From the NCBI RefSeq assembly GCF_030651995.1, contig NZ_JAUSBN010000047.1, positions 1 to 64,000 on the forward strand: a stretch of 64,000 nucleotides of DNA. Direction: 5' to 3'. Of the stretch, positions 35,867 through 44,235 are shown in pieces; within the stretch, counting starts at the first letter, position 1; every line of letters starts with the position of its first letter. Under the pieces are notes generated by a model that ran no database searches, was not told the DNA's origin, and saw nothing but the letters and a program-made list of their open reading frames with translations. The DNA comes from Reyranella sp. GTDB taxonomy: Bacteria > Pseudomonadota > Alphaproteobacteria > Reyranellales > Reyranellaceae. A program made the position numbers and the translations under genes.

Positions 35867-35889
35867 CGCGAGTCACCCCAAGAAGAGGA

Positions 35890-36007
35890 CCTCACCCTGA
35901 GGAGCGCTCCGCAGGAGCGCGTCTCGAAGGGTGGGCACGAGCACCCCGCCTGATCCCCGCCCTTCGAGACGGCGCTTCGCGCCTCCTCAGGGTGAGGTTT
36001 TTTCTGT
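35890..36007 (+). repeat. long inverted repeat, family D, copy 1, with T-run
   Basis: Arms ACCTCACCCTGAGGAGCG and its complement near 35983-36000 enclose a second pair (CGTCTCGAAGG/CCTTCGAGACG). The right arm is followed by a run of six T, so on the plus strand it would act as an intrinsic terminator after the alpha/beta hydrolase. The second copy is 44125-44235. Confidence 0.85.
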
Positions 36008-36023: not shown

Positions 36024-36560
36024 CTAACCGCTCTTCAGCAGCGCCATCACCTGGTCGAAGGCGCGGTCGGCGATCTCGTCGATCTCGGCCGGGGTGCGGT
36101 TCTGGATCGGATGGGGCACGTAGACGACCGCCGGCTCGAAGCCCAGCGCATCGCTCTGCGCGGTGACGCCGTCGACGAATTCGGTGGTCACGATGTTGAC
36201 GCCGGGGAGGCCGCGGCCGTCGAGACTATGAAGGTCGTGCAGACTGCACGATGTGCAGGAGCCTCAATCGCTTAAGGCGATCACCGCGAGCTGCGCCTCG
36301 GCCGCGATGGTCTGCAGCACAGCAGCCGGCGCCACCTTGGTGTTGGTGGGCTTGCGATAGCGCTTGGTCGCCACGCCGGCCGACTTGAAGTGCCCCTCGA
36401 GACGGTCGAGGAACTCGGCGCCGCGCGACTTGCCGATGTCCATCAGCGCCACGACCTTGCCGTCGAGCGAGGGCGGCGGCGCGAGGCGGGCGCGGCGGGT
36501 CGGCGAGGTCTCGGCCGTGGGATCGCGCAGCTTGGTCGAAGGGTTCATGGCCTGGTTCAT
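36024..36560 (-). CDS. UGSC-family selenoprotein, in-frame UGA (Sec) at codon 99
   Basis: Read from the ATG at 36558-36560, the frame gives 98 residues ending VIALSD, then TGA at 36264-36266, then without shift GSCTSCSLHDL and 72 more residues (VNIVTTEFVDG, AVVYVPHPIQNRTPAEIDEIADRAF) to a TAG at 36024-36026: 178 residues with Sec99. The UGA is followed by Gly-Ser-Cys, the signature of UGSC-family (seleno)proteins, in which the first position is Sec or Cys. Codon use and the family-like C-terminus continue normally after the UGA, so a plain stop is unlikely. A hairpin at the SECIS position follows (36235-36251). A U-x-x-C pair suggests a redox role. The start has AAGGA about 11 bases upstream and lies 14 bases after the stop of the thioredoxin-fused gene. 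Function unknown. No selA, selB, selC or selD is in the window, so the host must supply them. Confidence 0.85.
36235..36251 (-). promoter_or_regulatory. bacterial SECIS-like stem-loop in the selenoprotein mRNA
   Basis: Bases 13-29 after the UGA form TCGTGCA, loop GTC, TGCACGA: a perfect 7-base-pair stem. The loop G and U are bases 20 and 21 after the UGA, the same places as the SelB-contacted loop G and U in the E. coli fdhF element as I recall it, and the following CTGCAC is also shared. The bulged U of fdhF is not evident. Confidence 0.7.
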
Positions 36561-36574
36561 GGGGTCAGCGTCCT

Positions 36575-38017
36575 TCAGCGAATCTCGTGGGTGACGGCCT
36601 GGCATTCCTCGCGCACGCGCTGTCCGGGCCAGCCGCCGATGATGGCGGAGAATAGACCGGCCGGGCCGCCGGCGCGAACGATCAGCAACCCGTCAGGCGG
36701 AAACTTGTCGACGATCTTGTCGGCCATCGAGGCCGGCAGCCCTTCCGGCACGCCCTGCGCACCGTGGATCAGGTCGCGGCCGGGTCGCTTGAGGGCCTGA
36801 TAGAGCTCGTCCTCGATGCGCCGGCGGTTCCAGCCACCCTCCTTGAAGATCCTGTAATGCTCGGGCGAGAGCACCAGCACGGCGTTGCCTGAGTCGCAGA
36901 GCTTGGGATGGCCGACGCCGAACAGGCCCATCGCCAGCGAGCGCGCCAGCTCCTCCGGCGTGCGGGATTTCTGGTCGATGAAGCCGTGCACGCCCTCGGC
37001 ATGGAACAGCGTGACCGCGCTCTTGCCGGCAGCGATGCCGCGCCGCTGCGCCAGCGGCTCCCAGTCGGGATCGGATTCGTCCTCGGCGAAGCAGAAGGTG
37101 TACTTGCCGGGATTCCCCAGGGTGGCGCGATCCATGCCGCCGGGCTGGCCGCCGCCCACGTTGCGCACGATGAGCTGCAGGGCACGCCCGATCGTGGCAT
37201 TCGCGCGATTGCCCTGGCCCAGCGCATTGATGCCGGAGTTCATGCCGACGGCCTTCGCCGCCGGTCCGTTGATGATGACCAGCGGGCCTGAGAAATGCGT
37301 CGTGCAGAGCAGCCCATGCAGCACGAACAGCGGATCGAGTGCCGCCTCCAGCACGCCCAGCACGACCGGCATGTATTCCGGCTTGCAGCCCGCCATCACG
37401 GCGTTGATGGCGACCTTCTCGACGGTGCAGGGCGCGAGGTTGGGCGGGATCAAGCCGACGATTTCGCCGGGCTTGCGGTCGGTGCCGCCCAGCATGCGCA
37501 GGATGCGCTCGTCGGTCGGCGGCACGACGGGCAGGCCGTCGCTCCAGCCGCGCTCGAAGCAGGCCTCGATCGGATCGTCCCATTCGCCCACCGGAATCGC
37601 GCGCGACGCGAGGCCGGGATCGCCGTAGCGCGCGATCAGCGCCTCCTGCACGCCGGGCTCGACGCTGCGCGAGCCGCAACCGGGCTGCCAGGCGGGCAGG
37701 CCTTCGCCCGCGGCCGCCTGGCCGGCGAGGCGGGTCCATTCGGCACGATCCCAGCCCACGGTGCGCCCGACCTCGCGACCGCCTTCGTAGCGGATCAGGG
37801 TCGGCACGGCTTCGATGTTGAGATGGAACGAGCGTTCGAGTTGCTGGTCGTCGAGCACGCGGCCAACGCCGGCGGGAAAGGCCGGATCGTCCTGGGTGAT
37901 GACGGTGAGCGGGCCCGCTTTGTCGAGGCTCTGCATCACCGGCTCGACCAGCACGCAGGTATGGCACTCGTGCTTGGCAACGATCACCAGCCCGTCCGCG
38001 GGAAGTACCTCAATCAT
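36575..38017 (-). CDS. thioredoxin-like domain fused to a UGSC-operon conserved domain
   Basis: A 480-residue protein. Residues 1-95 look like a thioredoxin fold with redox pair C18/C21 (VAKHECHTCVLVEP), cis-Pro in NIEAVPTLIRYEGG, and GWDRAEW. Residues from about 150 form a second, unrecognised domain with WSDGLPVVPPTDERILRML, LIPPNLAPCTVEKVAINAVMAGC, THFSGPLVIINGPAAKAVGMNSG, and a C-terminal LLIVRAGGPAGLFSAIIGGW. I do not know its activity. It overlaps the MetX-like gene by 8 bases and is 14 bases ahead of the selenoprotein gene, so it is a probable redox partner or reductant of that protein. No signal peptide, so cytoplasmic. Confidence 0.75.
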   Translation of the reverse strand: MIEVLPADGLVIVAKHECHTCVLVEPVMQSLDKAGPLTVITQDDPAFPAGVGRVLDDQQLERSFHLNIEAVPTLIRYEGGREVGRTVGWDRAEWTRLAGQAAAGEGLPAWQPGCGSRSVEPGVQEALIARYGDPGLASRAIPVGEWDDPIEACFERGWSDGLPVVPPTDERILRMLGGTDRKPGEIVGLIPPNLAPCTVEKVAINAVMAGCKPEYMPVVLGVLEAALDPLFVLHGLLCTTHFSGPLVIINGPAAKAVGMNSGINALGQGNRANATIGRALQLIVRNVGGGQPGGMDRATLGNPGKYTFCFAEDESDPDWEPLAQRRGIAAGKSAVTLFHAEGVHGFIDQKSRTPEELARSLAMGLFGVGHPKLCDSGNAVLVLSPEHYRIFKEGGWNRRRIEDELYQALKRPGRDLIHGAQGVPEGLPASMADKIVDKFPPDGLLIVRAGGPAGLFSAIIGGWPGQRVREECQAVTHEIR

Positions 38018-38988: not shown

Positions 38989-39912
38989 TCAGCCGAAGCT
39001 GCGGATGATCTCGCCGTGCGTCTGAGTATAGCTCTTCGCGATGTATTTCAGGTGCGGCCGCAGGTGCCGGTGCGCCTCGGGCAGATGATGGAACGGGATG
39101 TTGGGCAGCAGGTGATGCTCGGCGTGGTACGGCAGGTTCCACATCAGGAAGCGCACGATCGGATTGGACAAGGTCGTGCGCGTGTTGGCAAAGCCGTCGT
39201 CGCTATTGGGGCACAGCGTATGCTCGGTCAGGAGATAGAGCCGCAGCAACGGCAGGCCGACCAGCAGCGGAAAGAACCAGACCCAGAGCACGACATCCGT
39301 CTTGAGCAGGATCGAGCCCACGATCAGTACCGCATAAAGCGCGAGCAGCCAGCGGCCCCAGCGCCGCACCTCGGGCCACGCCGAGTCGTGGATGTAGGTC
39401 ACGTCGCCCTTGAAGCCGAAGGGGAACAGGAAGATGTCGCGCACGCGGATCATCAGGAACGGGATGGCGCTCACGCGGAAGAGATAGCTGCGCCACCCGG
39501 TCGGCGTGACCGAGGTGATGAGCTCGGGATCGCGGTCGGGATCCTGCGTGTAGCGGTGATGGGCGAGATGATAGTGCCGGTAGAAGCCGGCATTGTTCAG
39601 GATCGCCGCGCCCGAGAAGAAGGCCAGCAGGTCGGCCATCCAGCGCGTCTTGAACGAGCCGTAATGCACCGACTCGTGCATGGCGCCGAACAGCGAATTC
39701 ACGAAGATGCCCTGCAGCAGCAGCGCCGGCAGCACCCACCAGGTGCCGCGCGTCTCGAGCACCAGCCAGCCACCGAGGATCAGCAGCACGAGATGGGCGC
39801 CGGTCTGGATCAGGCCCTTGGTATCGTCGCGGGCATAGAGGCGCTTCAGCACCTCCGCCGGCACCACCCGCATCTGGCGGGCGCGCTGGCCGGTTACGGT
39901 ATAGGTGCCCAT
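38989..39912 (-). CDS. membrane fatty acid desaturase
   Basis: A 307-residue integral membrane di-iron desaturase/hydroxylase. All three histidine boxes are seen: HESVHYG (GAMHESVHYG), HLAHHRYTQD, and HAEHHLLP (LPYHAEHHLLPN). Four membrane segments lie between. The ATG at 39910-39912 gives MGTYTVTGQR; the longer open frame reads into the upstream flavoprotein gene out of phase. It overlaps that gene by 19 bases. Its place in the selenoprotein operon is unexplained; it may act on a lipid or a small aldehyde/alkane. Confidence 0.88.
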   Translation of the reverse strand: MGTYTVTGQRARQMRVVPAEVLKRLYARDDTKGLIQTGAHLVLLILGGWLVLETRGTWWVLPALLLQGIFVNSLFGAMHESVHYGSFKTRWMADLLAFFSGAAILNNAGFYRHYHLAHHRYTQDPDRDPELITSVTPTGWRSYLFRVSAIPFLMIRVRDIFLFPFGFKGDVTYIHDSAWPEVRRWGRWLLALYAVLIVGSILLKTDVVLWVWFFPLLVGLPLLRLYLLTEHTLCPNSDDGFANTRTTLSNPIVRFLMWNLPYHAEHHLLPNIPFHHLPEAHRHLRPHLKYIAKSYTQTHGEIIRSFG

Positions 39913-40568
39913 AGACCTTCCTTGTAGGCGTGTTCGGTGACCGCCTCGCGCTTCTTCTTCTCGTCCTCGCTCAAGCCGATCTGGTCGCCGACCATGCGCG
40001 CGATCGACGGGAAGGCGCCCTTGGGCTGGACATAGTCCGGCGACCACAGGCGCGAGCGCAGCAGCGCCTTGGCGCAGTGCAGGTAGGCCTGGCGGACCGA
40101 AACGACGATGGCGCATTTCGGCGCCTTGCCCTGCACCGCCATCGAGGCGAGCAGCGCCGGATCGACCGAGAGGCGCGCGGTGCCCGCCAGCCGCACCGTC
40201 TCGTTGACGCCGGGCAGCAGGAAGATCAGCGCGACCTCGGGGTTCTCCAGCAGATTGCGCAGCGTATCGAGCCGGTTGTTGCCCGGCCGGTCGGCCAGCG
40301 CGATCGTCTTCTCGTCGAGCACCTTGAACGAGCCCGGTGGATCGCCGCGCGGGGTCACGTCCTGCTTGCCCGACGCGTCGGCGGTCGAGATCAGGCAGAT
40401 CGGCGAGCGCGCAATAAAGCGGCCCATATGCTCATCGATGCGGCCGATGTCCTTGACCGCCGCCGTCACGCTGACCGGCGCGTAGGAGGCGACCAGCGCC
40501 CGAGCGCCCGCCTCGTCGAGCAGCGCCGGTTCCTTGGGAGCCGCCGAAAAGGGCAGAGAATCGGGCAT
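39894..40568 (-). CDS. PPOX-type FMN flavoprotein (MSMEG_1061-like)
   Basis: A 224-residue pyridoxamine-phosphate-oxidase-like split-barrel protein. FRSPICLISTADASGKQDVTPRGDPPGSFKVLD and LALADRPGNNRLDTLRNLLENPEVALIFLLPGVNETVRLAGTARL are typical for this subfamily. The start at 40568 has GGAGGT 9 bases upstream. It is the first gene of the five-gene operon leading to the selenoprotein. Members bind FMN or F420; the reaction is unproven. Confidence 0.87.
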   Translation of the reverse strand: MPDSLPFSAAPKEPALLDEAGARALVASYAPVSVTAAVKDIGRIDEHMGRFIARSPICLISTADASGKQDVTPRGDPPGSFKVLDEKTIALADRPGNNRLDTLRNLLENPEVALIFLLPGVNETVRLAGTARLSVDPALLASMAVQGKAPKCAIVVSVRQAYLHCAKALLRSRLWSPDYVQPKGAFPSIARMVGDQIGLSEDEKKKREAVTEHAYKEGLWAPIP

Positions 40569-44124: not shown

Positions 44125-44235
44125 ACCTCATCCTGAGGAGCGGTCCGCAGGACCGCGTCTCGAAGGATGGGAACGAGCACCGCGTGTGTTGCCCATCCTT
44201 CGAGACGGCCACTCCGTGGCCTCCTCAGGATGAGG
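44125..44235. repeat. long inverted repeat, family D, copy 2
   Basis: Arms ACCTCATCCTGAGGAGCGG and its complement near 44216-44235, with an inner CGTCTCGAAGGATGGG/CCCATCCTTCGAGACG pair. Same design as 35890-36007. It lies in the 311-base gap 44083-44393 between ahpF and a converging gene. The remainder of the gap holds a TGCGACTGAGTCGCA dyad and the family E tandem at 44332; I see no gene. Confidence 0.85.

Follow-up and report, generated by a model that had tools for sequence, protein, structure and literature searches.

Does the in-frame UGA of a minus-strand gene in Reyranella sp. end a truncated protein, or is it read as selenocysteine (Sec), and what might the resulting protein do? The window analysed here is the whole 64,000-nucleotide stretch (contig NZ_JAUSBN010000047.1, positions 1 to 64,000) of a 5.5-Mb genome in 92 contigs. 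From its frame and profile matches, we annotate the minus-strand gene at 36024-36560 as a putative UGSC-family selenoprotein of 178 residues with Sec99 and a TAG stop. The annotation of its in-frame TGA (U99; 36264-36266, minus strand) as Sec draws on the corresponding codons of relatives, and on the distribution of selA.

A reading frame that continues past UGA

The minus-strand frame 36560-36024 begins with ATG at 36560, runs for 98 codons to the TGA at 36266-36264, and continues for 79 codons to a TAG at 36026-36024. The residues flanking the TGA are SD-U-GSCTSC, and read-through would yield a product of 178 residues with Sec at position 99. A plain ORF listing gives instead a 113-codon ORF at 36264-36605, closed by the TGA. 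Re-reading of the minus strand thus bore out the frame and motif described in an earlier, sequence-only reading of this DNA, along with its statement that standard gene calling reports a truncated frame of 113 codons. The same reading held that family-like sequence continues beyond the UGA, and this too is what we find, in a profile match that extends to residue 176, in codon-like conservation and in invariant residues after the TGA.

The open frame itself proves little, because comparable open stretches are common by chance in this GC-rich DNA. Seventy-nine codons after the TGA stay open in 17.8% of 20,000 base shuffles, and of the window's 193 frames that have at least 90 codons and end in TGA, 58 run open for at least 79 codons further; such lengths being common in this GC-rich window, we discarded the open frame as evidence for Sec. 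The signals that exceed chance are the family match across the TGA, the codon-position pattern on both sides of it, and the conserved hairpin described below. The Pfam UGSC profile (PF24696) matches residues 11-176, and thus spans the TGA, with E 1.4e-33 and 116.9 bits against a curated cut-off of 25, the TGA being scored as Cys. The NCBIfam model NF041046, 'UGSC family (seleno)protein', matches at 118.3 bits (E 2.7e-34), slightly under its cut-off of 125, which is also missed by both other UGSC genes of the genome (114.9 and 121.1) and by one further relative (L085; 122.5). The genome carries three UGSC genes in all, with one TGA in each, and a separate search of 398 genomes from the phylum detected PF24696 in five, counting the present one.

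Conservation at the level of codons and of residues points in the same direction. Differences between the window gene and 25 close-clade relatives number 224, 159 and 516 at codon positions 1, 2 and 3 before the TGA, and 121, 118 and 367 after it. In a 50-row protein alignment (A2), invariant positions lie on both sides of the TGA, and comprise Lys44, Lys70, Asp98, Sec99, Gly100, Ser101, Cys102, Ser104, Ser106, His108, Asp109, Phe128, His150, and Pro151; the motif D-U-G-S-C, followed by HD, is invariant in all 50 rows. Exceptions to the motif occur outside this alignment, namely UGAC in L078, UGGC in L087, and G-U replacing D-U in L077 and L081. An Rfam scan of the window gave no match at gathering score, a single-protein UGSC query found no relative among viral contigs, and PDB sequence searches gave no meaningful match for the UGSC protein and none at E up to 1 for a profile of the fusion proteins described below (A3).

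Selenocysteine and cysteine at the same position

Relatives were collected by keeping the best 80 of 243, among which the nearest belong to Reyranella and related Alphaproteobacteria (closest, 96% identity). The 89 locus entries examined (L021-L109) include the window itself (L023), a single place entered twice (L106/L109), and an entry that is part of another (L107, within L068); redundant entries stay in the raw counts, and counts of 'distinct' rows drop identical sequences. At the position of residue 99, the 86 motif-matched sites carry TGA (61), TGC (21) or TGT (4), two of these sites being one gene counted twice (L068/L107). Five sites were read by eye, of which four are TGA, at loci missed by the motif search, and one is Cys (L106). 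As one of the two peptide patterns used in the scan had Cys at the Sec position, the ratio of Sec to Cys is not a frequency. The same TGA recurs in independent assemblies of other Reyranella, and of more distant bacteria.

The divergent relative at L106/L109 (G277 contig 6) has Cys at the Sec position within H-C-G-S-C, with RD following; a TGA comes 29 residues further on, and the first half of the gene lies in another frame. It looks like either a broken copy or an error of assembly, and was left out of the codon and hairpin counts. As L106 carries its TGA elsewhere, an in-frame TGA in the UGSC family is not always Sec.

The two codon classes also differ in the genomes that hold them. Among 25 genomes with a TGA gene, 24 have a selA that scores over its cut-off, compared with seven of the 24 genomes with a Cys gene (Fisher P 8e-7), in a test that covered 50 of the 80 loci, comprising all 24 Cys loci and 26 of the 56 TGA loci (25 genomes). 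The one TGA-gene genome without selA over the cut-off is a metagenome-assembled genome (MAG; L080). In a tree of 50 rows, the 16 Cys genes fall on one side of a single branch (support 94/94) and the Sec genes opposite, in a topology rooted by midpoint only and accompanied by long-branch warnings. The simplest reading would be one switch from Sec to Cys, a direction that we infer, followed by loss of the hairpin and by a move into bacteria that lack selA, Bacteroidota among them. The pair of clades, Sec with the hairpin and Cys lacking it, constitutes a clean natural experiment on the loss of a Sec codon.

A hairpin that accompanies the UGA

A predicted bacterial SECIS apical hairpin lies at 36235-36251 on the minus strand, with a 7-bp stem and the loop GUC (36244-36242), 19 nt past the UGA. 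Of 47 distinct TGA rows, 46 form all seven pairs of this hairpin, with a loop of the form GUN; none of 23 distinct Cys rows does. Every one of the 61 TGA genes has AGT as the serine codon that contributes to the loop, as against none of the 25 Cys genes, which use other Ser codons there; elsewhere in the TGA genes, AGT makes up 7.5% of 530 Ser codons. In a hairpin alignment of 47 rows (A4), picked by hand from the 61 TGA genes and 44 of them distinct, 99.7% of cells pair, and a compensatory change from C-G to G-C is seen in 14 of the 44 distinct rows. This flip replaces a Cys of the protein by Trp, so that the RNA pair survives a change of residue. A covariance model of the hairpin, searched against the 5.5-Mb genome by scoring 150 of 5858 first-look candidates, recovers the three UGSC genes at E 3e-13 or better, the next candidate being at 0.06.

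The geometry also agrees with what has been published. The limits for bacterial SECIS elements given in PMC13188914 include a loop of 3-9 nt, a stem of 4-16 bp, and a G in the first two loop positions, as well as a distance of 16-37 nt between UGA and loop and a minimum free energy of at most -7.5 kcal/mol (PMC13188914); with its 3-nt loop GUC, 7 bp, 19-nt distance and -8.8 to -11.4 kcal/mol, the hairpin falls inside all of these. In the SECIS of E. coli fdhF (formate dehydrogenase H), GUCUGCAC is found 20-27 nt after the UGA, exactly as in the UGSC gene, although the stem pairing, the remaining hairpin, and the protein family differ. With z-scores of -1.2 across 45 nt and -2.9 across the 27-nt core, the folding energy does not stand out, and the Cys relatives fold too; we set it aside as weak evidence, and the case for the hairpin is consequently one of geometry and conservation rather than energy.

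Selenocysteine machinery in the genome

The genes for Sec insertion are present in the same genome. On contig 34, tRNA-Sec (anticodon UCA; 71.5 bits), selB (465 bits), and selA (565 bits) lie side by side, and SelD is encoded on contig 80 (L018) as an Ndh-SelD fusion with an Ndh-like flavoprotein. Fusion of SelD to an Ndh-like protein has been described earlier, in marine bacteria (PMC2398784).

The genome also contains a PrdB-like gene (contig 77, 50403-50930 and downstream; L130) with a TGA at the UxxC position (L130:1492-1494, minus strand), in the context VPV-U-PACTR. Downstream of this TGA is a 7-bp hairpin with the loop GTG, and the gene probably encodes a fourth selenoprotein. Formate dehydrogenase was considered as a further selenoprotein and rejected, the matches listed being without an in-frame stop.

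How the UGA is read

Sec is almost certainly inserted at this UGA, as residue 99. The reading is supported because the Sec machinery is present, relatives carry TGA or Cys at the same position, and both the hairpin and selA track the TGA. SelB would bind the hairpin, and Sec would thereby be put in at residue 99. The sequence-only reading had inferred Sec from the motif and cited a stem-loop in its favour, and both points have gained from the present comparison: the inference from the machinery, the codons of relatives, hairpin conservation, and the distribution of selA; the stem-loop in being a 7-bp hairpin that is conserved with TGA, lost with Cys, and marked by a compensatory pair. The two checks that it had proposed also turned out in its favour. 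Where a genome without the Sec genes would have spoken against Sec, selA, selB, tRNA-Sec, and selD are all found, and where relatives might have shown an unrelated residue followed by stop codons, alignment finds TGA or Cys at position 99 with conserved sequence beyond.

If the UGA were a true stop, the product would be a truncated protein of 98 residues, and the remainder a decayed relic or the outcome of a sequencing error. Plain ORF listing does close the frame at the TGA, 79 open codons are common by chance in the DNA of the window, and the divergent relative L106 looks broken. However, the identity of the TGA across independent assemblies from Reyranella and beyond is at odds with such an error or relic, as are the persistence of codon-like conservation past the TGA, and the invariance of Cys102, His108-Asp109, Phe128, and His150-Pro151 in the 50 rows; we regard a stop at this codon as extremely improbable. 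The UGA might alternatively be decoded as Cys or Trp by a near-cognate tRNA, without selenium, and the existence of presumably functional relatives with Cys codons is compatible with this. Such decoding has very little probability in our estimation, given that the hairpin and the AGT codon follow UGA and are missing with Cys codons, that selA likewise follows UGA, and that tRNA-Sec, SelA, SelB, and SelD all occur in this genome. Insertion of Sec is therefore the reading that we carry forward: the Sec machinery is present in this genome, and across the sequences compared the SECIS hairpin is kept with UGA and absent with Cys.

The UGSC family in the literature

The window gene is a member of the UGSC family, and the family itself is already known; the sequence-only reading was too strong in calling the selenoprotein 'undetected', given that the family is in print and that curated Pfam and NCBIfam models exist. 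By 2008 at the latest, UGSC-containing proteins had been described as a major selenoprotein family in aquatic metagenomes, where they rank among the most abundant (PMC2398784). In the GOS set of that study, 255 Sec UGSC sequences stand against 21 Cys homologs, and the family was most used in non-marine samples (PMC2398784). The window protein shares with this family (PF24696, NF041046; 'UGSC-containing protein' in PMC2398784) the motif, the size, a whole-length match across the UGA, and the occurrence of Sec and Cys forms, and nothing sets it apart beyond an NF041046 score slightly under the cut-off. The 2008 account assigned UGSC a likely thioredoxin-like fold, and already noted its fusion to an unknown domain, 'Unknown_1' (PMC2398784); our guess would be that this domain is the partner described below. 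UGSC appears in later papers, among PMC9312934, PMC9402790, PMC5330540, and PMC5029168, and a UAG-decoding UGSC variant in Geodermatophilaceae is described in one of these four. A 2026 review places UGSC among families with largely uncharacterised function, and we found no function for it in the open-access literature. The present analysis adds a constant partner gene, natural fusions, a flavodoxin-like model, and a proposal for what the family does.

A constant partner gene

Directly upstream of the UGSC gene in the window lies a minus-strand gene for a 480-aa protein (36575-38017), hereafter the partner. Its N-terminal part has a thioredoxin-like look (CHTC) and is followed by a domain of ~380 amino acids with no credible Pfam match in profile searches. 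The partner adjoins UGSC in 88 of 89 locus entries, the exception, L082, being a locus in which the match starts 56 bases short of the end of the contig; of the partners in L041 and L055, the contig carries just the end. Across 86 UGSC genes, the partner lies upstream in 68 and downstream in four, is fused C-terminally in 13, and is missing in one. Adding L078 and L087, both overlooked by the motif search, to the 13 motif-matched fusions gives 15 fusion genes in 12 loci. Among the partner residues conserved in 97% or more of filled rows are Asp160, Cys211, Asn286, Asp296, Cys309, and Glu312.

The N-terminal part of the partner (37721-38017, minus strand) is possibly thioredoxin-like, with a conserved C-x-x-C and weak matches, the best being to thioredoxin (E 0.011) and to a glutaredoxin-like family (E 0.047); a PDB sequence search likewise gave weak thioredoxin matches to this part of the 480-aa protein. 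Similarity to its counterpart in the window identifies the thioredoxin-like part in 52 loci, 50 of which have C-x-x-C; in two relatives (L049 and L061) this part gave no profile match at E 1e-5.

Neighbouring genes were counted as well, in counts that are lower bounds because some loci span about 1.5 kb per side. L022 and L096 have a thioredoxin-reductase-like gene immediately upstream of UGSC, and at least eight more loci, in two subgroups, have one in their flanks; that of L062 passes NCBI's thioredoxin-reductase cut-off. Small-acid genes, which in some clades hint at the kind of substrate, include BKACE, directly upstream of the partner in five Bacteroidota loci, DctA in at least five loci, and TctC-type binding proteins in at least 18. 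In the window, the partner overlaps by 8 nt a MetX-like alpha/beta hydrolase (PRK07581; 38010-38978, minus strand), a neighbour in 24 of 26 close-clade loci. Beyond it, possibly in the same operon, is a fatty-acid-desaturase-family protein (38989-40116, minus strand), a neighbour in 22 of 26. The desaturase-family frame overlaps a PPOX-type flavoprotein frame (39894-40568) by 223 bases, and its start is thus probably downstream of 40116.

Fold and a proposed two-part enzyme

The overall explanation that we favour, with high confidence, is a UGSC-family selenoprotein that forms a two-part enzyme with its partner; that the two proteins make up one enzyme is, taken separately, a likely proposition. 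An AlphaFold2 model of the UGSC protein (pLDDT 91.3) is a strictly alternating (beta-alpha)5 structure of flavodoxin-like form, in which Sec99 is modelled between strand 91-97 and helix 100-115, at the N-terminus of the helix. The best Foldseek rows include flavodoxins and the FMN reductase SsuE, and the PDB matches shown are mostly flavodoxin- or Rossmann-like. The top solved matches are tied (Z ~11-12) and comprise a designed protein, 8s7v_H, BdcA, and TIR domains, none of which we accepted as UGSC relatives on such tied scores. A model of the fusion protein has a mean pLDDT of 86.9, with PDB matches that mostly cover the UGSC half. The predicted fold is thus flavodoxin-like, and the model does not support a thioredoxin-like one.

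In the mechanism that we propose, UGSC would be the catalytic selenol subunit of a two-part enzyme completed by the neighbouring partner protein. The Sec99 selenol would attack a substrate held by the partner, a Se-S bond would then form with Cys102 of the UGSC motif as a possible resolving residue, and the thioredoxin-like part fused to the partner would re-reduce it, with thioredoxin reductase behind. For such thioredoxin-fed reductive chemistry, suggested by the domains and the neighbours, we see the chances as evenly balanced, our estimate having been slightly lowered because the thioredoxin assignment rests on weak matches. The partner, the fusions, the thioredoxin-like part, and the nearby thioredoxin-reductase-like genes make the function of an abundant family testable.

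Two other accounts of the protein bear on this proposal. UGSC might be a thiol-oxidoreductase or thioredoxin-like family in its own right, as the UxxC motif would allow and as it has been counted in print (PMC2398784); yet the strictly alternating model with its flavodoxin and SsuE matches, and a partner that adjoins in nearly every entry and is fused in 12 loci, render this improbable. Alternatively, UGSC and its partner could be distant cousins of PrdB (D-proline reductase) and GrdB (glycine reductase; PF07355, TIGR04483), using dithiols to cleave a C-N (or C-X) bond of a small organic acid reductively. Both share Sec in UxxC, and a weak, in-register profile similarity exists, in that a local profile alignment sets Sec99 on the Sec or Cys of PrdB-like proteins over 60 columns (P 0.027), with a score of 22.5 against at most 18.9 in 30 control alignments (ORF clusters of the same loci, many of them shadow frames); the presence of small-acid metabolism genes (BKACE, DctA, TctC-type) near some loci would also fit. 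However, the UGSC protein gives no match to PF07355 at E up to 5 (HMMER filters on), the hhalign probability is 1.8%, and the global alignment has P 0.61. Neighbours vary between clades, moreover, that of Reyranella having the MetX-like hydrolase and the desaturase-family protein. PrdB and GrdB systems have a pyruvoyl pro-protein partner (PrdA/GrdE), and the UGSC partner is without credible Pfam match. We treat the profile similarity as a weak lead, not as membership, and kinship with PrdB/GrdB as unlikely. No PrdB/GrdB or thioredoxin entry is among the structure matches listed for the UGSC model, an absence that rules nothing out; queried with the genome's own PrdB-like protein, phmmer found no PDB chain.

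Returning to the two-part selenoenzyme, its most specific form is offered tentatively, as a speculation that we would not yet favour. UGSC and partner may constitute a thioredoxin-fed enzyme of environmental bacteria, a remote and rearranged counterpart of the Prd/Grd systems acting on a small organic acid, of which one lineage would have swapped Sec for Cys once, lost the SECIS, and come to reside mostly in bacteria (17 of 24 tested) without selA over the cut-off, including Bacteroidota.

Further observations on the loci

The subgroup of L022, L096, L102, and L108 may have its partner genes in tandem, since the first partner downstream of UGSC is overlapped or followed there by another partner-like frame. 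Two betaproteobacterial MAGs (L094 and L097) carry three and two UGSC-partner fusion genes, respectively, within ~10 kb, together with TctC-type solute-binding proteins. In the window, paired inverted repeats (CCTCACCCTGAGGAG and a one-base variant) occupy 35889-35998, just past the UGSC stop and between converging genes; a second such pair lies ~8 kb off, at 44126-44235, and the arrangement looks like an interspersed intergenic repeat.
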